From: a virus
Strand: one strand, 5' to 3'
Virus record (IMG/VR): IMGVR_UViG_3300008735_000091
Span: 1-25,926 of that record
Length of the DNA: 25,926 bases
The notes under the pieces are model-generated. The model was not told the DNA's origin. It saw only the letters and a list, made by a program, of their open reading frames with translations, and searched no databases. Of the stretch, positions 3,281-25,812 are shown one piece after another. Positions within the stretch are counted from its first letter, which is position 1. Every line of letters begins with the position of its first letter. The position numbers and the translations under genes are program-made.

Positions 3281-4031
3281 CGCTAACAACAAGGCTCATC
3301 TTGAGACTCTTAAGGCTTGTGGGGCTAAAAACGTCCTTTTAGCATACAAGTATTCATATGCTAATATTAAGAAGTTTTACGGTAATTTTGATTCAATAAT
3401 GGTTGTAGCTGGGGTAGGTGTAAATCCAGATAAATATCATAGTTGGTTAAAAGATAAGAAAGAATATTATAATTATGCTACACAGTTTGATGTATATTAT
3501 GATATGGAAAAGACAATAAAACATTGGGAAAAAGAAAAAGAGGAGGGAATAGATTGGACACTACCTGTATTACAGGAAAACTATCTGCAACATATAAGTA
3601 GAATTAGACCAAAGTCAGGTTCATATGTTTGTCTTGGGGAGATAAAAGGTAAGTTTGAGACAGAAGACCAGATGAGAAAACTACCTGCAAACTTAAAGTT
3701 TCACGGTCTGGCAAAAGGCAAGTTTGTCCAAGATAGAAAATTTCATAGTATAGATACTAGTGGTTGGGTTTCTGCTGCTATGAGTAAAAAGACAGAGATA
3801 TGGAGTGGTAACAGTACATACTCCATGTATTTTGGTCAAAAGGGCAGGGGTATGACACCAATGTTAAGGCATTCATGTGAGGTTTACAGAGATAATATGG
3901 ATAAATTAGGTATAAATATAGAAGATGTTATCAATGCAGATTACTACACATTGCTTAAAATACCACTTGCATTACTATTTATGCCCATGTGTAAAGCTTT
4001 AAATATGTATGACGAAAACTTTAATAATTGA
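3264..4031 (+). CDS. TGT/DpdA-like TIM-barrel protein, 255 aa
   Basis: The ATG at 3264 (MKIYFNANNKAHLETL) is preferred over an upstream TTG/ATG because the extra residues come from the overlapping gene. Visible landmarks are FDVYYDM (an aspartate-ending strand), TLPVLQENY, YVCLGEIKG, LKFHGLAKGKF and FHSIDTSGW. The series PVLQ, then a (V/C)xLG(E/G) strand, then H-G-L-x, then S-(I/V)-D-(T/S)-S-x-W follows the layout of phage proteins annotated as queuine tRNA-ribosyltransferase-like, including DpdA, which inserts 7-deazaguanine bases into DNA. The usual zinc-binding Cys cluster of tRNA TGT is not visible, which would fit a DNA-directed or divergent member. No queuosine-precursor synthesis genes are in the window. 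Assignment is by motif order only. Confidence 0.5.
   Translation: MKIYFNANNKAHLETLKACGAKNVLLAYKYSYANIKKFYGNFDSIMVVAGVGVNPDKYHSWLKDKKEYYNYATQFDVYYDMEKTIKHWEKEKEEGIDWTLPVLQENYLQHISRIRPKSGSYVCLGEIKGKFETEDQMRKLPANLKFHGLAKGKFVQDRKFHSIDTSGWVSAAMSKKTEIWSGNSTYSMYFGQKGRGMTPMLRHSCEVYRDNMDKLGINIEDVINADYYTLLKIPLALLFMPMCKALNMYDENFNN
4020..4028 (+). promoter_or_regulatory. Weak TATA box for the 4049 gene
   Basis: TTTAATAAT starts 29 nt before the ATG at 4049, inside the end of the previous gene. The spacing equals that of the strong promoters in the window, so a secondary leaderless promoter is likely here. Confidence 0.45.
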
Positions 4032-4048
4032 TTTGATAATTGGTATTC

Positions 4049-4561
4049 ATGACTAAGGATGATTTGTTCAAGATAGAGCCTATTGAGGGTAATATTACTA
4101 TCGATAAGAGAAAGACTGTATCTCCATTTAACTCGGTTAAACACCTAAAGACAGCAAACATACCAGCACTATGTGATCAATGTGTATATAGGTCTATTGA
4201 TGATGGTGGGAATGGAAAGTGCCCAAAGTATGAAAAGGGTGCAGTGTGTGCTATCAGGGAGGACTTTGTTAAATTCATCAATGATTTGGATACAAGAAAC
4301 CCAGAAGACTTGAAGGCTATGATAGATATGATAGCAAAACTATCATTTGAAAATGTTCTTATGGCTTTGACACAGGCTAAAATGGATGGAAATATACCAG
4401 ATAGAAATACAAAATCAGAAATCAATACATTATTACAGATAGTGAAATCATTAAATGATCTAAATAATAAGATAGTAGTAACAGAAAGAACAGAGTTTGA
4501 CAAGACAGGAGACATATCGAATATCTTCAGGCAGATAAAAGCAAGGAAGAGTGGTGAGTAA
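4049..4561 (+). CDS. Probable terminase small subunit with Cys4 knuckle
   Basis: A TTG at 4040 also opens this frame, but ATG at 4049 sits 29 nt after a TATA-like word and gives MTKDDLFKIEP. Residues about 42-70 contain CDQC, then 11 residues, then CPKYEKGAVC, a likely zinc knuckle. The rest is helical (a DPEDLKAMIDMIAKLSFENVL-type stretch split over two helices), followed by NIPDRNTKSEINTLLQIV and GDISNIFRQIKARK at the C-terminus. The location a few small genes before the large terminase, the size (170 aa) and the helical core ending in a basic tail fit a small terminase subunit that recognises viral DNA and recruits the motor. Sequence alone does not prove it; a zinc-dependent transcription factor is the alternative. 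Confidence 0.5.
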   Translation: MTKDDLFKIEPIEGNITIDKRKTVSPFNSVKHLKTANIPALCDQCVYRSIDDGGNGKCPKYEKGAVCAIREDFVKFINDLDTRNPEDLKAMIDMIAKLSFENVLMALTQAKMDGNIPDRNTKSEINTLLQIVKSLNDLNNKIVVTERTEFDKTGDISNIFRQIKARKSGE

Positions 4562-4728
4562 TGGAAGACGGATTATTCTTATGGTTCCTCTGTGGTTGTT
4601 ATCTGTTAGGTGGATTAACCATTGGCTGGTTTGGTGGAATCTGGTGGAGAGATAGGAAAGGAAAGAAAACAGGAACAGGTAGATGGGATTACAGAAAAAG
4701 AAAGGATTATGGTGACCAGTTTAGTTGA
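4561..4728 (+). CDS. Single-pass membrane microprotein, 55 aa
   Basis: The start overlaps the previous stop as TAATG. Residues 5-28 are strongly hydrophobic with Gly-Trp motifs (LFLWFLCGCYLLGGLTIGWF), followed by WWRDRKGKK and a basic, tyrosine-rich tail. This is one transmembrane helix with a positively charged cytoplasmic side. Position in the packaging operon and size are compatible with a holin or other membrane-active late protein, but nothing proves lysis. It is the first in a chain of tiny overlapping genes leading to the large terminase. Confidence 0.6.
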   Translation: MEDGLFLWFLCGCYLLGGLTIGWFGGIWWRDRKGKKTGTGRWDYRKRKDYGDQFS

Positions 4729-4838
4729 CACCAGCATATGATATAAGGCATTGTATATACTGTGGTAAAGAATTTTGTTGCACAGATGAAGTATTATCAC
4801 ATATCAAATCTAAACATATGGTGATTGGTAGTGGCTGA
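4725..4838 (+). CDS. C2H2 zinc-finger microprotein, 37 aa
   Basis: The TTG at 4725 overlaps the previous TGA by 4 nt (TTGA); an in-frame TAG just upstream leaves no other start. The product holds a complete classical finger, C-x2-C-x12-H-x4-H (CIYCGKEF through HIKSKH), with a Phe four residues after the second Cys and a Leu two residues before the first His, the hydrophobic core positions of C2H2 fingers. The protein is little more than one finger. It would bind DNA or a protein partner; a regulatory or packaging-accessory role is a guess. Confidence 0.7.
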   Translation: MTPAYDIRHCIYCGKEFCCTDEVLSHIKSKHMVIGSG

Positions 4839-4941
4839 CACTGAGTTTATAAATGGGCATTGCACCAAATGTGGTTGCTATTGGGGAGTATCTGATGAGG
4901 TTTCAGAAGCTGTTGGTTGTGAGTGTGATTGCCATGACTGA
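4831..4941 (+). CDS. Cys-rich microprotein, 36 aa (C-x2-C-G-C … C-x-C-x-C-H)
   Basis: GTG at 4831 overlaps the stop of the C2H2 gene by 8 nt (GTGGCTGA). The product has HCTKCGCYWG, an acidic linker, then GCECDCHD at the end. Five to six Cys in 36 residues point to a metal-bound knuckle. It shares its layout with the 28-aa protein at 5049-5135, which suggests duplication. The codons for its last residues, Cys-His-Asp-stop, contain the ATG of the next gene. It is too short for standard gene callers but fits the coupled chain exactly. Confidence 0.65.
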   Translation: MADTEFINGHCTKCGCYWGVSDEVSEAVGCECDCHD

Positions 4942-5056
4942 TAATATAACATTAAGATTTAACAGGTATATGAGAGAATTGGCATTAATTGAAAAGAAAA
5001 GAGAAAGAAAATTAAGACAGATAGAAGAACTAAGAGGTAAGTTAAAACTTGGGTAA
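4934..5056 (+). CDS. Small coiled-coil protein, 40 aa
   Basis: ATG at 4934 overlaps the previous stop by 8 nt (ATGACTGA). An upstream ATG at 4853 in this frame is less likely because it would be buried in the microprotein gene. The sequence runs TDNITLRFNRYMREL, then a Lys/Arg/Glu-rich amphipathic helix (IEKKRERKLRQIEELRGK) with heptad-like Leu/Ile spacing. It probably forms a short coiled coil and may be a terminase or zinc-protein partner. No family is recognised. Confidence 0.55.
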   Translation: MTDNITLRFNRYMRELALIEKKRERKLRQIEELRGKLKLG

Positions 5057-5135
5057 AAAAGGATATTGCTGTTTCAGATGTGGTCATTGCGAGTCAGAAG
5101 ATGTTGGTAGTTGTGGGTGTAAGTGTCATGGCTAG
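5049..5135 (+). CDS. Cys-rich microprotein, 28 aa
   Basis: TTG at 5049 overlaps the previous TAA by 8 nt (TTGGGTAA), and an in-frame stop at 5043 excludes any longer form. The product is YCCFRCGHCES, a short acidic stretch and SCGCKCHG, the same C-x2-C-G-(C/H) … C-x-C-x-C-H layout as 4831-4941. Its last codons (Cys-His-Gly-stop) contain the terminase ATG. Eight Cys or more in 28 residues would be improbable in non-coding DNA. The likely role is a metal-binding peptide or a translational coupler for the terminase. Confidence 0.6.
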   Translation: MGKKGYCCFRCGHCESEDVGSCGCKCHG

Positions 5136-6513
5136 ACCAGATAAACAAGTACTAGAGGAAAGGCAGAACTTCGTACAAACTATAGCAGATTGTGCTGCAA
5201 ACCCAAGCCTATTCAGTAAGGTATTTCTTGACCATGAATTGTTTGAGTATAATAGAAAATATGTAGACTGTAACGAAAGATTCATTGTATACAGGTCTGG
5301 TAGACAGGTTGGTAAAACAATGTCTACTGCTGTCAAGGCAATACATTTTGCATTCTTCGCACCAGTAATGTTGAAGACAGTAAACAAGGAATGTACTATT
5401 GTGATAGCAGCACCTACACAAAATCAGGCAACAATCATGTTCGATAGAATTAGAAGTCTTGTTATAAATAATAAGTTCCTGAAGGGATATATAGTGAGAA
5501 ATACACAGTCAGAATTATGGGTTAAGTTTCTAGATAATAACGGTATAAGTAAGATAATCACTAGGGCTACAGGAGAAACAGGTGTATCTCTTAGGGGTTA
5601 TTCTCCTCACGTAATTATAGCTGACGAATGTTCCTTTATTAAGACAAACATATTAAAAGCATTCTTACCATCTGGTATGGCTACACAGGCAAGAGTATGG
5701 TTAACATCAACACCGTTTAGTAAATCAGGTTATTTTTATGAAGCTTGTGTTGGATCAAGACCTGCAAACCCTGAGGGTATGTGGTTAGAATTTCATGTGA
5801 AGTCAACCCAAAACCCATTGGTTCAGGAAGATCCAGCATTCCTAGAAGAAATTAAAAAACTGACAAAGGATGAATATGTACAGGAGGTGGAGGGAGAATT
5901 TCTTGATGTGGGTGATGCACTTATACCAAACTCACTACTTACAGATTCTATATCCGATGCAAGACCTAGTGGAAAAGCAAGATATTATCTAGGGGTTGAT
6001 GTGGCTCGAACTGGAAGAGATGAAACTGTATATACTGTGATAGCAGTTGATGAAAACGATACTGTTTATGTGGAACATACAGAAGCAGAAGCACAATCAA
6101 ACATAGTAGACATAGCTGGTAGAGTAGGAGATATAGTTAGAGATTATCGTATTGAAACGGTATATGTAGACGAAACAGGATTGGGTGGTGGTCTAGTAGA
6201 TTTGGTAAAAGAACAGGGTTCACCTGTAAGAGGAGTTGTATTTACCATGCAGGAAAAGGCAGTAATGTATAGAACACTACGTTTATTATTTGAAAATCAT
6301 AGAGTAAAAATCAAAGACATTAACAAACTAATATACCAACTATCCTATATAAGAAGAGAATATACCGAAACAGGTATAATGAAGATTAAATCAGATGAAC
6401 ATGACGACTATCCAGATAGCCTAGCATTAGCTTGTAAGGCTGTAGCAGGTGGAGATGGTGCCTATGTTATAGAATTAGGTAAGAATTTAAAGAAAGTGTT
6501 GTTTGGCGATTAA
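5128..6513 (+). CDS. terL: Terminase large subunit (packaging ATPase-nuclease), 461 aa
   Basis: The motor that pumps DNA into proheads and cuts it. ATG at 5128 (MARPDKQVLEER) overlaps the microprotein stop by 8 nt; a GTG at 5080 would add residues that duplicate the microprotein frame. The Walker A variant GRQVGKT is at 58-64, Walker B with catalytic Glu is VIIADE at 162-167, and the coupling motif is LTSTP near 192-196. The C-terminal RNase-H-fold nuclease carries D291 (GVDVARTG), D348 (YVDETG) and an acidic group at 426-430 (HDDYPD) before SLALA. Length and motif order are complete, so it should be active. A new promoter follows the stop directly. Tailed viruses of archaea and bacteria share this protein. 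Confidence 0.95.
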   Translation: MARPDKQVLEERQNFVQTIADCAANPSLFSKVFLDHELFEYNRKYVDCNERFIVYRSGRQVGKTMSTAVKAIHFAFFAPVMLKTVNKECTIVIAAPTQNQATIMFDRIRSLVINNKFLKGYIVRNTQSELWVKFLDNNGISKIITRATGETGVSLRGYSPHVIIADECSFIKTNILKAFLPSGMATQARVWLTSTPFSKSGYFYEACVGSRPANPEGMWLEFHVKSTQNPLVQEDPAFLEEIKKLTKDEYVQEVEGEFLDVGDALIPNSLLTDSISDARPSGKARYYLGVDVARTGRDETVYTVIAVDENDTVYVEHTEAEAQSNIVDIAGRVGDIVRDYRIETVYVDETGLGGGLVDLVKEQGSPVRGVVFTMQEKAVMYRTLRLLFENHRVKIKDINKLIYQLSYIRREYTETGIMKIKSDEHDDYPDSLALACKAVAGGDGAYVIELGKNLKKVLFGD

Positions 6514-8267: not shown

Positions 8268-9789
8268 ACCTATTAAGAAAGATGGTGGTGGGTATGGTAA
8301 TTTAGACATGGCTAATCAACATGAAAGCGATAAAGAGACCCCAATAAGACATGGGAGACAGGGTAAGGATGAAAAAAGTGAAACTTATATAGGATTGCCT
8401 GCTAGAAATGGTAAGAAGATGACACTAAACAAAATACAGCATACTAAGGTTGGAGACGATATACATTTCTTTGTAAATGGTCAGGAAAATAGGGGTGTTG
8501 TGGTAAAAATGGGTGGAACCTATGTTTCAGTATTTAAAGAGGATGGTAACATACATGAAATACCAATTAATGAGACATTTTTCGTTAAAGATATACTAGT
8601 TAATAAGACTTGGGATGATATGACTGGAGAAGAGAGAACTGAATTACTTCAAAATGCTCATGCGTATAGTCCAAGATTCCTAGCAAAGAACTGGGATGAC
8701 TTACCAAGAGAATTAAAGACAGTTTTAAGTGAGAAGGCAACAGGCATGGAACAGAATCATGCTAAAGATAATTTAGAAGTAGAAGATGCAAATCATGCAC
8801 AGACAGGATATGCACAAACACAACAGAATACTCTGGGTAAGGTAGCACCAGCAGTTGGACTCGGAGCAGCAGTTGGAGCAGGACTTGGTAGAGCAGTTGG
8901 TGGATATGCAGGTAAAAAAATAGGAGAGAAAGTAGCAGAACATAGATCAGATAAAAATCCAACCAGAGGAAGACGTAAGAAAGATTTGTTTGGTGTAGAT
9001 AAAGATGCTATAGATTCAAAAGATAATGAAAATACTCCATCCAAAACACAAGATGGACTTGGATTAGATGCTGTAATACCAGTTGAGGGTGCACGTCAAT
9101 CAAGTCAAGGACAATCTCATGATGTAAGAATACCTTATGAGGATCTAGATGAAGGAGGTAGTAAATACAATCAAGCAACTAGTTGGGGAGGTGGAACACC
9201 TGACACACTTAATGCACGACCAAAACTGGAAGATGCAAGATTTAGAGGTAGTGATGGAGATTATGAAAAAGACAGGTCTCCTGCAAAAAGGAAAAGTATA
9301 GATGGAACATTAAAAGCAATATTACAATTAAAGTCAGATGTAGAAGCTGGCAAGTATGGTAACGTAGGTAACACAGCAGAGGTAGGAGTAAGTACTGATA
9401 CACCATTAGATGTCTCAGAAGAATCAGGCTATGAAGAAAGACCACATATATCATTAGAAGAAGTAGGTCAACTACCAAGAGCAGATGCAAAAGAACATCA
9501 TGCTAACGAAGTAAAAGAGACAGGTAAGAAACAAAAGATAGAACCACATGAAGTTAAACAAGATAAAAAGAAAGGAGAAGATGGTCAGACAGGTGCAATA
9601 AATACAAGTGAGGGGGGTGCTTTCAACCCAGTTTACAATGCTTATGATACACCAATAACACCAGAAGAAACCAAGACAGGTAGAAAGATAGCAGGCAGAG
9701 ATCAAATTAAGAAAGGAATACCAATATACAATGTTAATAGTTGGGGTATAAGATATGTTACTAAAGAAGATGAAAAGAAAGATGAGTAA
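8257..9789 (+). CDS. Second charged late protein with beta-barrel-like N-part, 510 aa
   Basis: ATG at 8257 (MRLKPIKKDGGG) overlaps the previous gene by 11 nt and has GGAG at 8244-8247; upstream ATGs in frame are less well placed. Residues about 60-115 (KVGDDIHFFVNG, NRGVVVKMGGTYVSVF, IHEIPINETFFV) resemble a small SH3/KOW-type barrel. A TWDDMTGEERTELL helical part follows, then a Gly/Ala helix near 195-220 (VGLGAAVGAGLGRAVGGYAG) like that of the 574-aa neighbour. The rest is charged linker. The shared helix suggests that the two proteins come from one ancestral type. It may be a virion or ejection protein; no name is assigned. Confidence 0.6.
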   Translation: MRLKPIKKDGGGYGNLDMANQHESDKETPIRHGRQGKDEKSETYIGLPARNGKKMTLNKIQHTKVGDDIHFFVNGQENRGVVVKMGGTYVSVFKEDGNIHEIPINETFFVKDILVNKTWDDMTGEERTELLQNAHAYSPRFLAKNWDDLPRELKTVLSEKATGMEQNHAKDNLEVEDANHAQTGYAQTQQNTLGKVAPAVGLGAAVGAGLGRAVGGYAGKKIGEKVAEHRSDKNPTRGRRKKDLFGVDKDAIDSKDNENTPSKTQDGLGLDAVIPVEGARQSSQGQSHDVRIPYEDLDEGGSKYNQATSWGGGTPDTLNARPKLEDARFRGSDGDYEKDRSPAKRKSIDGTLKAILQLKSDVEAGKYGNVGNTAEVGVSTDTPLDVSEESGYEERPHISLEEVGQLPRADAKEHHANEVKETGKKQKIEPHEVKQDKKKGEDGQTGAINTSEGGAFNPVYNAYDTPITPEETKTGRKIAGRDQIKKGIPIYNVNSWGIRYVTKEDEKKDE

Positions 9790-12700
9790 GATGTCTCTGT
9801 TATCAAAAAAAAAGAACCTGTAAAAGAAAAGGAAGAAAAACCTAAGGAAGAAAAACCTGAACCTATAAAAGATAAAAAAATACAAGATGCTATAAGAAGA
9901 CTTAGGACATGGGATTCAGGTAGGAATGAACCTAAACTAAATCCAAAGCAATTACCAAAGACAGGATTAGAAACACCACCAGAAACACCTCGTATTGATG
10001 AAAGTACTGGTAAACCCTCAAGAGCAACACCTCAATTAAATGAACAAGGTAAAATAATAAATACTAAACCAACGTCAGAAGTTGTTCCACCTACAAAACC
10101 TGAGGGATATGAGGAACCTAAGGATATTGCAGAAGTACCTGAAGAAAAAATGGAAGAAATTTTGGGAACAGGTATGGACTTTAAGGCTTTATATGATGAA
10201 GAGATAGACAATGCAAAAGAAGAGGGTAGACCTGTAAACTTTCAAGCAGTTAATCCAGAAGAATTCTTACAACATATACAGTCTATACCATCAGATAGAC
10301 CATCAAATGATTATTTCATAATGCATCTTGAATCACAAGTTACTAACTATATGTCGATGCAGGGAACAAAACTTCACGAGGGATATTTACCAGATGATAT
10401 AACAAAGTTTCTTGGTTTTGATAATATACCAAAACATGAAGTTGTTTTTTCAGCACTGCATGGTGCAACGCCTGATTCAATAGGATCAGATTCACATATT
10501 AAATATTACCAAAACTTACCACTAACACCACATGAACAAATAGGAAAGGGATTAATGGATAGAAATGAACCTATAACCATGGGGGATTTAACAAACAGTG
10601 GAAAAGTTTCAGAGGGAGAATATCTTATTGGTTTTGAAACTTATAATTATTTTGAGCCTTGGGAATCAACCAAATTAATAAGAAATATTTATGGTGTGCT
10701 TGGAAGAGACTACCAAGAATTAAAACCATTCTTACATCCACCAGAAGGTAAGGATATGATGGGTAGATATACTTGGGCTATAGACATACCAATACTACCT
10801 TATTATAAGGTTGAGGGAGAATCAATAGAAGCAAAAGAGAAGCCAAGAAGAACAGAAGAAGAAGTAGCAGAAGAAAACAAACCTCATAAAGTAGGTACTA
10901 CATCTAGAGCAACCATAATTAGTTTAGGAGGGTCACTTGATAGAAAGGATGATGAAAGAACACTTGACCCTAACAAACCTTTTCCTACATTTAGATCTCC
11001 AAAACCACGAGAACGAGATTATGGTGGTAATAAACTTATTTCTGGCAGAGGAAATATTGGTGGATTTCTAGAAAAAGATCTACATGATCATAAAGTAAGA
11101 TTTGTTAATATGAATGCAGAGAGATTTGTGACTTTAGCTGGCGTAGATAGAAAATACCTAGATGAAAAAATGATTAATCATTGGAAAAAAAAGATAGCAG
11201 ATGGACAATCATATATGCCATTATTGTCTATGCAATATGATCCAATAACAAATCAAGTTCAACATTCATACTTTGATAAAGTAGAAATGGCAATAGCAGC
11301 TATTGAAATGGGAATTGAGAATGTACCAGTTGTTGTTCAATATCAACAAACAACTTCCGATTATGGACAAAGACAGTTTGTTGAAGATAGAAATCACCCT
11401 GAAGGCTGGACTCAAAATAGAAAGGGATTACCATATGACACAGATGATGTTGCCTACTATCCAGAAGTATACCAACAATTTATGGGTAAAGGCTGGCAGG
11501 AAGGAACTAAAGAACAAAGAGATAAAGTAGGAGGAGAGAAGTTTTGGAGAGCTAATGATGATAGATCTAGAATGAGTGAGAAAGAAGAGGAAAACGCAAA
11601 GGAGATATTTTTTCTTAAAAGTACACAGAAAGCAGCAGGATACGCACATTCTATTGCACTTGAACATGGTGGTTTTCAGATTGCAAGTGTAATGTCTATT
11701 TGGGATAATGGTGGAAGTAAATTTCCACAAGATGGAATAGTAATGGATCAACGAAAAAGAAAAACTAAAAAAAACACATTTACAGAGGAAGATGTGAATG
11801 TATTAATGGAGAAGTTTAATTCAGTAGAGCATAAAGGAGAGTTTGACAGAGCACTTGATAAATTTTACAAGATGTTAAATCTAAATCCTACACTAAAAGA
11901 AGAATTTGAGAAAGCAGATAGGGTTTTTGAAGATCAGCATAATCGTACTCACAGTCAACTTTACCATGGTGGTATAAGGAAGCTTCATAGAGGAACAACC
12001 CTGCAAGATGGGGCAAATATTATGGGAGATGAGGGTGGAGAATATGGAGATGAGCCACGAATCAGAAAAACAATTAAAGCAGGGAGAGGAGGAAGAGCAG
12101 TATTTGATTATATATCCACAACTATATCTCCTGATATAGCTATGAATGATCATATGCCATTTGATGGTCTTGTCTGCTTTGAATTTGGAGTAGACCAACT
12201 ACAACAAAATGCGAGGAGAGAGCATACAGGAATATGGGATGACAAATTATACAATAAACAAAAGGAAGAAGTGAAACAAGCAATAAAGGAGTGGGAGAAA
12301 AAGAATCCTGACAAACTTGAAGAAAGAGGAAGTGGAAAAATGGAGATGCCTTTCGGTCTTCAACTTGATCTTGAGCGTAAAATGTTCCCACATATAGGCG
12401 AAAGAGATAGAGCTACAAAACCATCAAGAAAAAAGTATAAAGGTGGATCATTAAGACCAGTGAGATATACTGTATACCCCACACCCATGTTGGGAGAAAA
12501 TCCTGAAGAAAAGCTTTGGGGCATGGAAAAAATAGATACAGATATGCCTGCCAATATGGCTAAGGAGATGGAAGTAAGGCTTCCAATAGGAATGTCTGCT
12601 AAAAATGCAGTGGAGGGTGTTATAATTAATCTCGGTGCAATAGGAAATCTTAAGGAACTTCTTACAGTTCTTGGAAAATGGCAGAAGAAAAATTATAGAA

Positions 12701-13287
12701 GACAGCACTTTCGTTTAAGTGGACAGGAAGAAACTATGACTGAACAGGAAATTAGTGATTGGGAGAATAGGAAAGTACTCCCCATAGGAAGAAAGCCAAG
12801 AAGTAGGTGGCTAAAACGTCTAGTAGGACATTACAATCCAAAAACTGGTGTGAAAGAACATTGGGAACCATATGCTAATCCTGCTGGCTTTGATAAGGAG
12901 TTAAATCTTCTTAAGGCTGAGAAACAACTTAACGGTTATATCGATGAAGAAGCATTAAAAAAGTTTTTGTTTGAAACAAAAGTAGTTGACCCTTTTATGG
13001 GTGATCCTCAATACGGACATACTAGAGGAGAATCTAATAAAGTTTCTTTGTGGAAAGCACTGGATGAAATTATAGGAAGATATTTGAATTTAGGTAAAGC
13101 CATGAGAAAAGAGACACATCCTGATAAATCATTTCCAATTCCCATAAGATACAAGCTCGGTAGATATTCATCTCCAGTTGGTAATGCAGTTAGAGGTTCA
13201 ATGGAAGATGGATCAGAAGAAGTCGAATACAAAACTTTTAATGATCTATGGTCTAAGTATAGGAGGAATAAAAATGACCTATACTGA
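9782..13287 (+). CDS. Giant late protein with ADP-ribosyltransferase-like domain (about 1,168 aa if frameshifted)
   Basis: Frame 1 is open from 9790 to 13287 and is protein-like throughout (Lys/Glu/Pro-rich start, then folded regions), but it has no ATG, GTG or TTG before 10150. ATG at 9782 overlaps the previous stop by 8 nt (ATGAGTAA) and would join this frame by -1 slippage at 9808-9814. The coordinates given include that shift. Counting from the Met at 10150, residues 316-400 resemble a ParB/sulfiredoxin-like fold (MPLLSMQYDP … AIEMGIENVPVVVQ). Residues 605-815 carry the R-S-E signature of ADP-ribosyltransferases: R614 in LHRGTT, S656 in YISTTIS, and E806-x-E808 in KEMEVRLPIG. ART domains transfer ADP-ribose from NAD to proteins, nucleic acids or small molecules. 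The late position suggests a virion-borne enzyme, as with T4 Alt. The first 250 residues are unassigned. Confidence 0.6.
9805..9814 (+). promoter_or_regulatory. Candidate -1 slippery site A AAA AAG
   Basis: A run of nine A then G. In the frame of the ATG at 9782 or 9791 it reads AAA AAA AAG, with the heptamer A AAA AAG at 9808-9814. The upstream frame would stop at 9821; a -1 shift enters the long ART-protein frame. The same run could also cause RNA-polymerase slippage or a sequencing indel. Confidence 0.5.
13261..13266 (+). promoter_or_regulatory. Strong Shine-Dalgarno site
   Basis: AGGAGG 7 nt before the ATG at 13274, located in the last codons of the ART-protein gene. It decides the start of the next gene, which has no nearby TATA box. 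Confidence 0.7.
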
Positions 13288-13550: not shown

Positions 13551-13679
13551 ATGAGGAAAGACGACACATTTTACTGCGTAGAGTGTGGTGCCACACTACC
13601 GTGGAGATACAAGGGTAGGCAGAGGATTTACTGTTCTCAAAATTGTCGCAAAAAGTACACAGAAAAGAAAAAAGATTAA
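13551..13679 (+). CDS. Zinc-ribbon microprotein, 42 aa
   Basis: The product has YCVECGATL, a basic loop, then IYCSQNCRKKY and a Lys-rich tail: C-x2-C and C-x3-C, the pattern of short 'YCSxxCR' zinc ribbons found in DNA-linked proteins. A start at ATG 13551 fits the TATA spacing. Its stop overlaps the end of the convergent RHH gene by 4 nt. Basic charge suggests nucleic-acid binding. Too short for most callers. Confidence 0.7.
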   Translation: MRKDDTFYCVECGATLPWRYKGRQRIYCSQNCRKKYTEKKKD

Positions 13680-18417: not shown

Positions 18418-18753
18418 ATGAAGTTTTATTCATCAACAAAAACAATTTCAGTTGGAACAAACGCTAAACCAGTATTTGAAACTCTTGATAAGATTAGACC
18501 AAATGATATTTCATTTAGTCTAATGGTAGCAATAGCTGCTGAAGAGTATATTAAAAATCATAATGATTTTAATAGCTGTATAGATAGTTTTACTTCAAAG
18601 GGTGTTGACACTTCCTTACCATTATTCTATGCTGATATTCAGAAGTGGAGAGAAAAAATAAAAAAATTAAATTCAAAGGAGTTTAAGAAACTACAACTAA
18701 GACTCTCACAGATTTCAACAATCATTAGGAAAGAGGTTGAGCAAAGGATATGA
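18418..18753 (+). CDS. RHH-like helical protein coupled to MCM, 111 aa
   Basis: Leaderless start. The N-terminus TKTISVGTNAKPVFETLDKI followed by NDISFSLMVAIAAEEYIKNH has the strand-helix-helix order of ribbon-helix-helix proteins. The rest is a charged helical part (YADIQKWREKIKKL, FKKLQLRLSQISTIIRKEV). The end overlaps the MCM start by 4 nt (ATGA), so the two are made together. It may autoregulate the operon through the direct repeats upstream, or be an MCM partner. Not a recognised GINS or Cdc6. Confidence 0.5.
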   Translation: MKFYSSTKTISVGTNAKPVFETLDKIRPNDISFSLMVAIAAEEYIKNHNDFNSCIDSFTSKGVDTSLPLFYADIQKWREKIKKLNSKEFKKLQLRLSQISTIIRKEVEQRI

Positions 18754-20708
18754 CTATGACAGTTTCAGCAAAGGAAGATAGTATCTATGATGTATTATGT
18801 GAGAGAAAACACGCAGATGTTATAGTCCAACTAAGACCTACAAGTACATACACTATACCAGCAGGACTATTAACAGATGTATTTGTGGAGTGTGATAATG
18901 TGAAAGAGTTTATTGATCATGTTAAGTGTGGTGTTTTAAGAATATTGAAAGAGAAGCATAGTGATATAGATGTGGATGAAGCATTTAAGGACTTGCAGAT
19001 AAAACTACTTGTAGATAATATGTTTAAAATGCATGAGTTATCTTCCAAGTATGAGAACACTGTAGTTAAGTTTGATTGTGTAGTGATAGCAACTGATTCT
19101 GCTAAGACTTTCATCAAAAAGGCTAGGGTATTCTGTCCATCTTGTTACAGTGAAGACCATTTAACCTGCGATTATAATAGAGAATTACCCATAATGTTTT
19201 GTACAAACTACAAATGTAAAAGACAAAAACTAAAGGTGGACACCTCAAACATGGAAACAGGAGACGTGCAGACAGTACTACTTCAGGAACTCATGGAGAA
19301 TGCTAAGAATAATAATCAGATAATATTGACAGGTAAATTAGTCAATAAGAATGTGAGAGATTCAGCAGTAGGACAGAAGAAAAGGATAACAGGTATATTC
19401 AAAACTATTGTAGATGATAAGAAAAATGAGCATGATATAGTAATAGAAATACTAACCCTCGAAGACCTTGAGGACGTATCACCGAGGTTACCCTCTCCAG
19501 AGCAACTTGAAAAATTAAAAGACGATGCTAAAAACCCTGACTTTATTAAGAGTATAGTAGATTCATTTGTACCTCAAGTATATGGTAATAAGAATATCAA
19601 ACTATCAATACTATGCATGATGGCAGGGGGTGTTGAAGGTCAGAAGAGGGCAGACATTAACATATTACTAGCAGGCGATCCTAGTATGGCAAAGTCAGTA
19701 TTATTAGTAGAAGCAGATAAGGTAACACATAAGTCAATGTATACCTCTGGAAGAGGAGCTTCTGCTGCAGGCTTGACGATAGGTATGATTAAAACATCCG
19801 ATGGTAGGATGCTAGCAATGGCAGGGGTACTACCATTAATGAGTGGTGGTATAGCATTCATAGATGAGTTTGATAAGATGAATAGAGATGACCGTTCAGC
19901 AATACACCCTGCAATGGAACAACAAAAGGTTACTATAGCAAAAGCAGGAACAACGTTAACTCTCCCTGCAAAGACAGCAATTCTAGCTGCAGCTAATCCA
20001 AAATATGGTAGGTTCGATTCTTCACAAACACTTACAGATAATATAGATATACCCCCACCTTTATTGTCTAGATTTGATTTGATATGGGTAATAAAAGATG
20101 AGATTAATCTAGCAGAAGACTTGGCAAAGGCAAACCATGTGTTAGATACATTTGAGAATAACAATAAGGAAATCATTAGAAAATATACAAAGGAAGAACT
20201 AACAGAATATCTTAATTATGTTAAGACATTAAAGCCTAAGTTATCTCCTACAATAAGAAAGAAAATCATATCAATCTATGAGAAGTTAAGAGATTTAGCA
20301 AGAAAAGATGATGTTGTTGTTGGCATAAGACAGTTAGAAGCATTGGTTAGATTGTCAACTGCTTATGCAAAACTCTCTTTAAAAGATATGGTGGACGATG
20401 AATGTGTTGATTCTGTAAAGGTTATGTTAGATGATGCTTACACAAGAATCAACCCTGACTTTGGTTCATCAGGTTATCAAGCACAACTACAGGGTGTTCC
20501 AAGTAAGTTAAGCAAAGAACAGTTAGCATTTAAAGTGTGGGAAGAGTGTGAGGATAATGATGGTCATGTAAACTTGGTTAAATTCTTTAGAGAGATGGAC
20601 AAAGTAAACTTCGACCAACGTGATGCGAAGAGAATCTTCTCACAATGGGAAACGAATTGTATTATAAAACTTAATGATGATGGCACTTATATGAGATCCA
20701 GAACATAA
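18750..20708 (+). CDS. mcm: MCM replicative helicase, 652 aa
   Basis: The hexameric ATPase that unwinds DNA at archaeal replication forks. The start at 18750 overlaps the upstream stop; a second ATG at 18756 is possible. The N-terminal domain has a zinc site C129-x2-C132 … C151-x4-C156. The AAA+ core has Walker A GDPSMAKS from residue 309, Walker B IDE with D372-E373, sensor-1 AAANPKYGR, and the arginine-finger segment LLSRFD. The C-terminal 80 residues form a winged helix (LSKEQLAFKVWEE … DAKRIFSQWE). Length and motifs are complete, so it should be active. A virus carrying its own MCM can start replication without relying on the host enzyme; no origin was identified. Confidence 0.95.
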   Translation: MTMTVSAKEDSIYDVLCERKHADVIVQLRPTSTYTIPAGLLTDVFVECDNVKEFIDHVKCGVLRILKEKHSDIDVDEAFKDLQIKLLVDNMFKMHELSSKYENTVVKFDCVVIATDSAKTFIKKARVFCPSCYSEDHLTCDYNRELPIMFCTNYKCKRQKLKVDTSNMETGDVQTVLLQELMENAKNNNQIILTGKLVNKNVRDSAVGQKKRITGIFKTIVDDKKNEHDIVIEILTLEDLEDVSPRLPSPEQLEKLKDDAKNPDFIKSIVDSFVPQVYGNKNIKLSILCMMAGGVEGQKRADINILLAGDPSMAKSVLLVEADKVTHKSMYTSGRGASAAGLTIGMIKTSDGRMLAMAGVLPLMSGGIAFIDEFDKMNRDDRSAIHPAMEQQKVTIAKAGTTLTLPAKTAILAAANPKYGRFDSSQTLTDNIDIPPPLLSRFDLIWVIKDEINLAEDLAKANHVLDTFENNNKEIIRKYTKEELTEYLNYVKTLKPKLSPTIRKKIISIYEKLRDLARKDDVVVGIRQLEALVRLSTAYAKLSLKDMVDDECVDSVKVMLDDAYTRINPDFGSSGYQAQLQGVPSKLSKEQLAFKVWEECEDNDGHVNLVKFFREMDKVNFDQRDAKRIFSQWETNCIIKLNDDGTYMRSRT

Positions 20709-22132: not shown

Positions 22133-22544
22133 TGATAGGTTTATTGGTAAGGGAGAGAAATCGGCTTTAGCCATTCTAAAAAAAATATTTCCCTCAGCAG
22201 ATATACAGATACAATTCCCCTTTAAGAATTTAATGAATGAGGAGTTTTTTGGCTCATTATCGGATAGGCAGAAAAAGGAGACTTTGGACATTGTTGTCTT
22301 TCAATACGCAAATCCCACAATAGTCATTAGAGTTCAAGACAAAACCCATGTAGGAACGATGAAACAAGTCAGAGATACAGTTCAGAAGAAAATGCTTGAA
22401 TGGAATGATTGTAAAGTCGTTGATTTGTGGTTTTATGAGTGTCCTACGCTATGGAAAGAAAAAGTGAATAAAACAAGTGAAGAAGAGATTAGGGTTGCTT
22501 TTCTTGATGCTGGATTGGATCAATCGCAGTTTGGGCATGGATAA
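22119..22544 (+). CDS. Second small PD-(D/E)XK-like nuclease, 141 aa
   Basis: ATG at 22119 (MRQIDDRFIGKGEKSALAIL) is chosen because the upstream ATG at 22101 adds residues only from the overlapping gene; the overlap is then 14 nt. The motif region is ETLDIVVF … IVIRVQDKTH: D57 and Q73-x-K75, again a Gln variant. A helical N-terminus (ALAILKKIF) precedes it. Two adjacent genes with the same Q-x-K core suggest paralogues or a two-subunit nuclease. The gene end overlaps the convergent zinc gene by 25 nt. Confidence 0.55.
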   Translation: MRQIDDRFIGKGEKSALAILKKIFPSADIQIQFPFKNLMNEEFFGSLSDRQKKETLDIVVFQYANPTIVIRVQDKTHVGTMKQVRDTVQKKMLEWNDCKVVDLWFYECPTLWKEKVNKTSEEEIRVAFLDAGLDQSQFGHG

Positions 22545-22651
22545 GAACAATAACCATTATCATCTAATTCTCTACCACATTCAGAACAGTCGCCATTCTT
22601 ACTCCCAAATACTTCACTTTCAAGAGCTTCAATTCTTTCTTCTAATGACAT
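22520..22651 (-). CDS. Zinc-binding microprotein, 43 aa
   Basis: Starts at ATG 22651, 3 nt after the stop of the upstream minus-strand gene. An N-terminal helix (SLEERIEALESEVFG, heptad-like) is followed by CSECGRELDDNGYCSYPCPNC, with C-x2-C, C-x3-C and C-x2-C. The fold is a short coiled coil plus zinc ribbon. Its last 25 nt overlap the nuclease gene on the other strand. It is short and overlapping and would be missed by most callers; the Cys spacing makes it credible. Confidence 0.65.
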   Translation of the reverse strand: MSLEERIEALESEVFGSKNGDCSECGRELDDNGYCSYPCPNCD

Positions 22652-23782: not shown

Positions 23783-24030
23783 TATCTACCATCTTCTTTA
23801 TCAAATCCAGAGATACCAAAATCAACAATCTCATAAATAGTCTTACCTACTAACATTTCTTCTTGTATCTCATCAAATAATTTTTTAATATCATCTCTGG
23901 TTAGTTGTCTACACCTATTTTTTCTAACCAATTCATGTAATCCCTTAGCATCTTCAAACATACCAAAATGTTGCATTGTCATTAGGGCTACCAAATGTAA
24001 TATAAATTTCTCTCTATCATTTAATGTCAT
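23782..24030 (-). CDS. Helical protein, 82 aa, unknown
   Basis: TLNDREKFILHLVALMTMQHFG, then ELVRKNRCRQLTRDDIKKLFDEI and a C-terminal EIVDFGISGF. Predicted four helices. Start ATG 24030 overlaps the VWA gene stop by 4 nt (ATGA), the usual sign of joint expression. No motif assigns a family. Confidence 0.55.
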   Translation of the reverse strand: MTLNDREKFILHLVALMTMQHFGMFEDAKGLHELVRKNRCRQLTRDDIKKLFDEIQEEMLVGKTIYEIVDFGISGFDKEDGR

Positions 24031-25697
24031 TTTAACATCGTCCTTATTACCAATGATTTGAACTCCTTTATAATTCTTTCGGAAGCTTCATTAACACCAT
24101 TTGTATGTATGAATCTTGAGCCAAATATCTCTCGCATTAGTGGTATCTCACTCTTTTCTCCTATATGAATACACATTATATTAGGTGTGTGTTTTAATGC
24201 CCTCTGTAATGATTTCTGTGTCATTGTTATCAGTTGTTTAAGATAGAATCTATAGTTGTTTTTATGATATTGTGGGTGTCCATCTGTTAATATGATTATT
24301 AATTTCTTTTCTCCCCTCATTCTTTTAGCTGTTCTTACTGCATAGTCTATTGCTAAATGTGTAGGCGTTTCCCCACCATATCCACAATTCACACTCTTAA
24401 CATCATCATAATCTTCTATCTCTTCTATTGTTATTTTTCCCTCACTATTTGATGACCAAGTTTGAGCCTTTATATCAACATTATTTAACCCCTCAACCGA
24501 TTTAAATAATGTTCCAACAAGATTCCTTGCTGTACTTATTTTTCTTCCCTGCATTGAAGCTGATACATCTACACTTAGTAACAAACAAATACCCCTTTCT
24601 AATTTTTTGTCTATCAAACACTCGTTTAAATTCTTCATCTCTATTTTATTCATAATAAATGATTCTATATCTATCTCATTACCCTGATCGTTTATTCTTT
24701 CTCTTGGTATCATGGAGAGTTTTCTAAATAATTTTCTCATTGAATTAGATATTCTTTCATTATATGTTGCTTCAGCTTCAGGTCTATCTACATATCTAAC
24801 ATAACTAACATCATCATTATCATCTGTTCGGTTGGAATCACTTAACTTATCATTTATTTCTTTAATGATATCTTTACCATTTTCCTTTTCTTTCTTAATT
24901 TCTTCTTCTAAATCATCAGATATGTTATCCTGTAAGTCATTTACATTTTCTGGGGTGGCTTCATCTCCCATCCAATCTTTAGTTTGGTCAGTAACAAACA
25001 TCTGTCGAGGTATATTTTTATGGTCATCAAGAATATTATCTTCCCACCATTCATCTAACAATGGTTTTATTTTTAGCATTACTTTAATGCTACCAAACTT
25101 ACCTGTTAGTTCAACATCTTCTAATGCTTGTTTCATTGCATTGTAGTATTTATTTTTCTTCCATTTATCTCCTTGCATAAATCTTATCATAAGCATTACA
25201 TTAGGTGGAGAATCTTTAGTTGGTTTCCACTCCCATTTTTCTTTATGTATTTTCTCATCTACAAATATATATTCTCCTCGTTTTTTCCTCATCTTTAAAA
25301 ATCTTTTACCTGTTCCTAACCATATCTTTCCACCCAATGATTCTATCCTTGTATCTTCTAATAGGTTAAGAGTAAATTTATAATAAGTAAATTTATTTCT
25401 TTCATTTCTATTGTCAGTCCAACTCCCAAGAATATTATGTATTATTCTAAATTGACTATCAAATAATATATGCCAACACTCATGGTTTAATGCTGTAAAT
25501 GATTCAATTCCTTTTATTGCAGGGCTAGCTAATTTTATAATATATTGACTAACTATGTTATCTATTTTACCTGTTTCCTTAACAGAACTATCTTGTCCTG
25601 TTGTTAATTTTATATTACAGTTTTTTATATTTTCTATTATATCAATTAATGCCCTATTCCTTTCTGTGTCAGATACTAATTCTCTATCCCTAGTCAT
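24027..25697 (-). CDS. CobT-like VWA protein with N-terminal HExxH segment, 556 aa
   Basis: The C-terminal VWA domain (residues about 365-550) has a complete MIDAS: D377-x-S379-x-S381 (DVSASM), T446 (GGETPTH) and D472 (LTDGHP). It binds Mg and a partner protein. An N-terminal part has NHECWHILFD with H72-E73-x-x-H76, a feature shared by phage and archaeal VWA proteins related to CobT, which act with a MoxR/CobS-type AAA ATPase. A long acidic middle (residues about 255-300, EEEIKKEKENG) links them. The partner ATPase is expected next in the operon, past the right edge; it is not visible here. GAGGAAG lies before the ATG. Confidence 0.8.
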   Translation of the reverse strand: MTRDRELVSDTERNRALIDIIENIKNCNIKLTTGQDSSVKETGKIDNIVSQYIIKLASPAIKGIESFTALNHECWHILFDSQFRIIHNILGSWTDNRNERNKFTYYKFTLNLLEDTRIESLGGKIWLGTGKRFLKMRKKRGEYIFVDEKIHKEKWEWKPTKDSPPNVMLMIRFMQGDKWKKNKYYNAMKQALEDVELTGKFGSIKVMLKIKPLLDEWWEDNILDDHKNIPRQMFVTDQTKDWMGDEATPENVNDLQDNISDDLEEEIKKEKENGKDIIKEINDKLSDSNRTDDNDDVSYVRYVDRPEAEATYNERISNSMRKLFRKLSMIPRERINDQGNEIDIESFIMNKIEMKNLNECLIDKKLERGICLLLSVDVSASMQGRKISTARNLVGTLFKSVEGLNNVDIKAQTWSSNSEGKITIEEIEDYDDVKSVNCGYGGETPTHLAIDYAVRTAKRMRGEKKLIIILTDGHPQYHKNNYRFYLKQLITMTQKSLQRALKHTPNIMCIHIGEKSEIPLMREIFGSRFIHTNGVNEASERIIKEFKSLVIRTMLK

Positions 25698-25812
25698 TAC
25701 TTCCTCGTTTTTTTACATACCATTCATAATCACAATCATCACAGATATATGTTCTAAATCCTTTGGTTTCTCCTGACACCACATCTTTTGATCCACATCT
25801 CTTACACTTCAT
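25690..25812 (-). CDS. Zinc-ribbon microprotein, 40 aa
   Basis: MKCKRCGSKDVV, a Gly/Thr loop, then ICDDCDYEWYVKKRG: a two-knuckle ribbon (C-x2-C … C-x2-C) of the TFIIS/RPB9-like minimal type. Start ATG 25812 has GAGGAAAG upstream and overlaps the previous gene by 11 nt. Its last 8 nt overlap the VWA gene start (ATGACTAG), the same junction as in the terminase region. Confidence 0.7.
   Translation of the reverse strand: MKCKRCGSKDVVSGETKGFRTYICDDCDYEWYVKKRGSND

Follow-up and report, generated by a model that had tools for sequence, protein, structure and literature searches.

A chain of overlapping tiny genes between a putative terS and terL in a probable archaeal-type tailed virus

We identified a chain of overlapping genes that leads into terL, the gene for the terminase large subunit, in a 25.9-kb virus record (25,926 nt, IMGVR_UViG_3300008735_000091), which was analysed in its entirety and is called the window below. 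All junctions from a putative terS to terL overlap, by 1, 4 or 8 nt. With high confidence we assign the chain to the packaging operon of an archaeal-type tailed virus, and its genes are very probably translated by ordinary SD-assisted termination-reinitiation along one transcript from terS, with coupling predicted from the gene arrangement. The features concerned are the following (positions in the window).

4018..4026, plus strand: TATA-like box CTTTAATAA, about 30 nt before the putative terS ATG; predicted operon promoter, leaderless-type
4049..4561, plus strand: putative terS (terminase small subunit-like), 170 aa, next to TerL
4561..4728, plus strand: small protein with a hydrophobic segment (GG[LIV]TIG[WY]), 55 aa; 1-nt overlap with terS
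4725..4838, plus strand: C2H2 zinc-finger microprotein, 37 aa, TTG start; 4-nt overlap with the 4561 gene
4820..4833, plus strand: GGTGATTGGTA plus GTG, SD and start of the next gene; encodes part of the C2H2 microprotein C-tail VIGSG
4831..4941, plus strand: Cys-rich (CxxC...CxCxCH) microprotein, 36 aa, GTG start
4831-4838, plus strand: GTGGCTGA, 8-nt overlap of the C2H2 and Cys-rich microprotein genes
4934..5056, plus strand: basic small protein, 40 aa, SD GTGAT 4 nt upstream
4934-4941, plus strand: ATGACTGA, 8-nt overlap of the genes for the Cys-rich microprotein and the basic small protein
5049..5135, plus strand: Cys-rich CxxCGHC...CxCxCH microprotein, 28 aa, TTG start
5049-5056, plus strand: TTGGGTAA, 8-nt overlap of the genes for the basic small protein and the CxxCGHC microprotein
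5128..6513, plus strand: terL, terminase large subunit, 461 aa
5128-5135, plus strand: ATGGCTAG, 8-nt overlap of the CxxCGHC microprotein gene and terL
9782..9789, plus strand: ATGAGTAA, cited earlier as a junction; gene start unsupported, ORF of 13 codons
25697-25690, minus strand: ATGACTAG, 8-nt overlap of a zinc-ribbon-like small ORF (25690-25812) and ORF 24027-25697

The sequence-only reading of this DNA had described four 8-nt overlaps in front of terL (4831, 4934, 5049 and 5128), and these are present exactly as described, as is the junction that it reported at 25697 on the minus strand. At all five positions an NTG lies 5 nt upstream of the previous stop and the downstream gene is in the +1 frame of its predecessor, again as had been stated. 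The observation that the codons for Cys-His-x-stop contain the next ATG in two cases is also correct, and applies to 4934 and 5128. The true beginning of the chain is the putative terS, which meets the 4561 gene by a 1-nt overlap (TAATG); the 4561 and 4725 genes share 4 nt (TTGA), and the four 8-nt overlaps come next. A further junction had been proposed at 9782. The octamer is there, but the frame that it would open runs for 13 codons before it closes, the large ORF that follows uses another frame, and a search for support of a gene junction at this site found none. Nor is the second codon always RST, as had been claimed, since the 45 distinct 8-nt junctions of the window and its relatives give A (10), N (8), I (7), T (6), S (4), V (3), G (3), D (2) and P (2); only the third-base T of this codon is forced, by the upstream stop.

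The region behind 9789 has features of its own. Beyond the TAA that ends the ORF there, the same frame stays open for 120 codons, which contain no ATG, GTG or TTG and run into a 1045-aa ORF at 10150 (window 9790-13287), and a run of nine A residues lies close behind the stop (window 9787-9810). This arrangement could reflect a start that was not recognised, readthrough, slippage or an error in the assembly. By tblastn (E <= 1e-3), the 1045-aa ORF (10150-13287) has no match in any of the 64 relatives of the virus.

These relatives were found by scanning viral contigs with TerL, and mostly have 70-80% TerL identity; the closest named TerL is that of the haloarchaeal virus HGTV-1, with 31% identity. 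The protein has the ATPase and nuclease domains expected for a tailed virus (Caudoviricetes), with matches to Pfam Terminase_6N (2.9e-17) and Terminase_6C (4.1e-9) and to PHROG 2 (1.5e-46). The window also encodes a RadA/Rad51-family protein and an MCM-like ORF at 18750-20708, the latter recognised by eye only. Searches of genome contigs with TerL and with RadA gave no match to a named host. The RadA/Rad51-family gene and the TATA-like promoters point to a probable archaeal host.

The gene at 4049 is called putative terS because the assignment rests on its position. It adjoins TerL in 62 relatives, with 55-94% identity to the window copy (27 aligned sequences), and has four invariant Cys residues (C42, C45, C58 and C67), a pattern that suggests zinc binding. 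Pfam and PHROGs gave no decisive match to a TerS family, and the structure model is poor (pLDDT 53). A weak match to PHROG 887 (1e-7), annotated as queuine tRNA-ribosyltransferase, was also seen.

The tiny genes between terS and terL are real, judging by their conservation in 8-16 related loci with conserved Cys/His patterns. The sequence-only reading had made its proposal depend on such conservation, which is present in subsets of the relatives. Homologues of the 4561 gene occur in 14 loci (median dN/dS 0.38), those of the C2H2 microprotein, which has weak zf-C2H2 matches, in 16 (0.28), those of the Cys-rich microprotein at 4831 in 10 (0.45), and those of the microprotein at 5049 in eight (0.36). 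The 4934 gene is backed by its coding score and by a homologue in one relative (L060). One could argue that the microproteins are spurious ORFs and the overlap chain an artefact of reading, as the genes are very short and a composition-based gene finder missed most of them. We consider this almost certainly wrong, mainly because of the conservation, with median dN/dS values of 0.28-0.45. The CxCxCH microproteins have no match in Pfam or PHROGs, and a DNA pattern scan of viral contigs for tandem Cys-rich cassettes gave no exact match. Elsewhere in the window there are more small Cys-rich, zinc-ribbon-like ORFs (2180-2308, 13551-13679, 22520-22651 and 25690-25812), the first two of which have homologues in 34 and 43 loci, respectively.

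Overlaps of 8 nt are an ordinary class. Genes in the window and its relatives were called with a home-made gene finder, supplemented by conserved short ORFs and given no distance bonus, and yielded 851 distinct junctions, among which overlaps of 4 nt (-4) are found 97 times, of 1 nt (-1) 75 times and of 8 nt (-8) 45 times. A genome-wide excess of 8-nt overlaps, which the earlier proposal implied, is therefore not seen: -8 ranks third, and the published ranking across 1,695 species is likewise -4 > -1 > -8 (PMC10666635). In H. volcanii the counts are 354, nearly 100 and 62 in the same order, which also holds in E. coli (PMC10666635). The -8 overlap is the shortest of phase 1 (PMC10666635), because NTG starts and TRR stops make -2 and -5 impossible. 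We considered whether the motif might be rare by chance and discarded this, since about 17% of Met codons of any kind carry it: the distance to the first out-of-frame stop is 8 nt for 16.6% of internal Met codons and for 17.3% of gene starts.

There is, however, a local enrichment. Overlaps of 8 nt make up 24 of the 70 in the terS-terL interval, compared with 21 of 239 elsewhere (OR 5.4, Fisher p 9e-7, a value that is overstated because the junctions are homologous and thus non-independent). That four of the six overlaps in the chain are 8 nt has a probability of about 8e-4 if the rate for the rest of these viruses (0.088) is applied, and of about 0.11 with the terS-terL region's own rate (0.34). 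So something beyond generic compaction keeps 8-nt overlaps at terS-terL. The enrichment would be explained, partly by inference, by the terL N-terminus and by cassette junctions shared among the families of tiny genes.

The contribution of terL can be read from its first codons. TerL has a conserved start, M-A/G-R-P, written ATG GCT AGA or ATG GGT AGA, and either version holds an out-of-frame TAG, so that an upstream gene in that phase stops 8 nt into terL. In the window this stop is supplied by codons 2-3 (GCT AGA). The genes that meet TerL by 8 nt are diverse: counted as distinct cases, they are TerS (6), CxCxCH microproteins (6), a coiled-coil gene (4) and others (2). Junctions of close relatives also measure 1, 14, 20 or 29 nt instead of 8. 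In one relative (L019), whose terL has GCA and not GCT as its second codon, the overlap is 14 nt as compared with 8 nt in L010; in another (L021) it is 20 nt as compared with 8 nt in L048. For C2H2 microproteins and for some of the CxC type, the overlap with terL is 1 nt. The 14- and 20-nt overlaps indicate that overlap length is not strictly kept.

Start signals are embedded in the upstream genes. At most junctions SD-like sequences sit within the 3' end of the preceding gene, and an SD of at least 5 nt is present at 49% of 8-nt junctions and 33% of 1- or 4-nt junctions, as against 9% for spaced genes and 6% for internal Met codons; the start codons are predicted, and the SD helped to choose starts, equally for the control class. 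Several junctions have an SD of 5-6 nt, and several 8-nt junctions, among them TerS-TerL ones, have no SD of 4 nt or more. The ribosome-binding site (RBS) sequence is conserved irrespective of the upstream gene. The C2H2 microprotein located before a CxC microprotein ends in HMVIGSG or HMVVGSG, written ATGGTGATTGGTAGTGG, which supplies the SD and then the GTG start; where the gene that follows has an ATG start and a 1-nt junction, the ending is HTRAx, written CATACGAGGGCAGCATAATG, again with an SD. The Val of the tail is GTG in 11 of 11 cases (some from near-identical contigs), as against 10% of Val codons in these viruses. The Cys-Asp-Cys-His codons (TGTGATTGYCAT) similarly contain GTGAT, together with the first two letters (AT) of the ATG that follows. 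A search with the RBS/GTG junction GGTGATWGGWAGTGGNTRA recovered 12 stretches, several of them in contigs of relatives already in the set. In one relative (L050, locus 6242) a 204-aa protein that is not homologous to the C2H2 microprotein, encoded about 230 nt before terL, ends in VIGSG with the same SD and start. The tail is common to non-homologous upstream proteins because the SD of the next gene is encoded there; the last residues of the upstream protein would thus be dictated by the start signal of the next gene.

The beginning of the chain is marked differently. A TATA-like motif at -40..-20 precedes 39 of 39 TerS starts, 2 of 39 TerL starts and 6.5% of random positions, the pattern having been chosen after seeing the data. 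Together with the contrast in SD sequences, this box fits an archaeal operon in which the first gene would be leaderless and the internal genes would use SD sequences and coupling. We therefore propose a model in which one leaderless-type transcript would start at terS, and each internal gene would be started by ribosomes that have finished the previous one, aided by the embedded SD. The 8-nt overlap would be used as the shortest possible in its phase. Its recurrence would have two sources: the TerL N-terminus Met-Ala/Gly-Arg-Pro (ATG GCT AGA), whose out-of-frame TAG may stop whichever gene lies upstream in phase, and related microproteins, which may bring the same start signals and junctions when they are gained, lost or exchanged.

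The sequence-only reading had gone further, to a re-initiation device that ties terminase translation to the microproteins. Coupled translation is indeed likely, given overlaps throughout, embedded SD sequences and a TATA-like box before terS with none before terL. The special 8-nt link, however, does not stand: -8 is a generic class, other lengths (1, 14, 20 and 29 nt) occur in closely related loci, terS and terL are adjacent in 38 of 63 loci, and in relatives ATGGCTAG also joins terL to terS, the coiled-coil gene and others. A dedicated device, in which microprotein translation gates terminase synthesis via strictly 8-nt stop/start junctions, would agree with the four consecutive junctions of the window, with the local enrichment and with purifying selection on the microproteins. 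It is nonetheless very improbable, as most relatives lack microproteins, the same octamer joins terS to terL, the overlap lengths vary between relatives as described above, some microproteins reach terL by 1 nt, and published work places the re-initiation efficiency of -8 below that of shorter overlaps. At the other extreme, the overlaps could be neutral leftovers of pure compaction, with each gene started independently via its own SD. The SD sequences of 5-6 nt and the retention of the RBS whatever gene lies upstream are in keeping with such independence, but the 8-nt junctions with no SD of 4 nt or more are not, and strong coupling is established for overlapping gene pairs in archaea and bacteria (PMC6728339, PMC10666635). 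We regard compaction by itself as unlikely, although to be taken seriously, and favor SD-assisted termination-reinitiation.

The variable microprotein cassette between terS and terL is a more unusual feature, and to us a more interesting one, than the length of the overlaps. It is carried by 25 of 63 loci and varies from none in many relatives to five tiny genes in the window. In the other 38 loci terS abuts terL, in many cases through the same ATGGCTAG, which makes the microproteins dispensable. A tentative reading is that the terS-terL gap is a swap site, where microprotein genes may travel as units bounded by an RBS and an 8-nt stop/start junction and dictate the last residues of the upstream proteins; it is based on the HMVIGSG and HTRAx tails within one zinc-finger family and on the VIGSG tail in L050. 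The analysis removes a claimed new translation device, and provides natural examples of an overlap length fixed by the first codons of the downstream gene and of ribosome-binding sites that shape the C-termini of neighboring proteins. A variable microprotein cassette beside the gene for the packaging motor merits a functional look.

Several known systems resemble parts of this arrangement. Haloarchaeal zinc-finger micro-proteins (e.g. HVO_0758, PMC10716476) are very small and have paired Cys motifs, like the microproteins of the window, although no homology to the CxCxCH families is detectable in Pfam or PHROGs. The 'marthaviruses', tailed viruses of Marine Group I Thaumarchaeota (Lopez-Perez 2019, as cited in PMC9238414), are uncultured archaeal tailed viruses from metagenomes, and are mentioned as a lead only. 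Among six named records inspected, three have an 8-nt overlap before terL (HGTV-1, Riverbug and phiCD27), while Hardycor1, Tunturi_4 and phiM5 have none. In HGTV-1, gene 4 shares 8 nt with terL (ATGAGTAG) and an SD-like sequence, GTGATTG, lies just upstream, as in the window; in contrast, the gene upstream of terL encodes no microprotein and a chain of tiny genes is absent. Thermus phage Riverbug (L077) has two consecutive 8-nt overlaps into terL (gene 33/terL), similar to the window chain, but it is a bacterial phage in which terL follows directly on a gene of ordinary size (about 160 aa). Its annotated terS is located downstream of terL and has an 8-nt overlap with the portal gene. In phage phiCD27, the 8-nt overlap is between terS and terL. 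The described class of -8 nt unidirectional pairs (ATGNNTRR) with termination-reinitiation (PMC10666635; related PMC6728339), which ranks third among overlaps in archaea and bacteria, is identical in geometry to the window junctions and likewise has the SD inside the upstream gene. The window differs in that four such junctions follow in a row, between tiny Cys-rich genes whose coupling is predicted from sequence.
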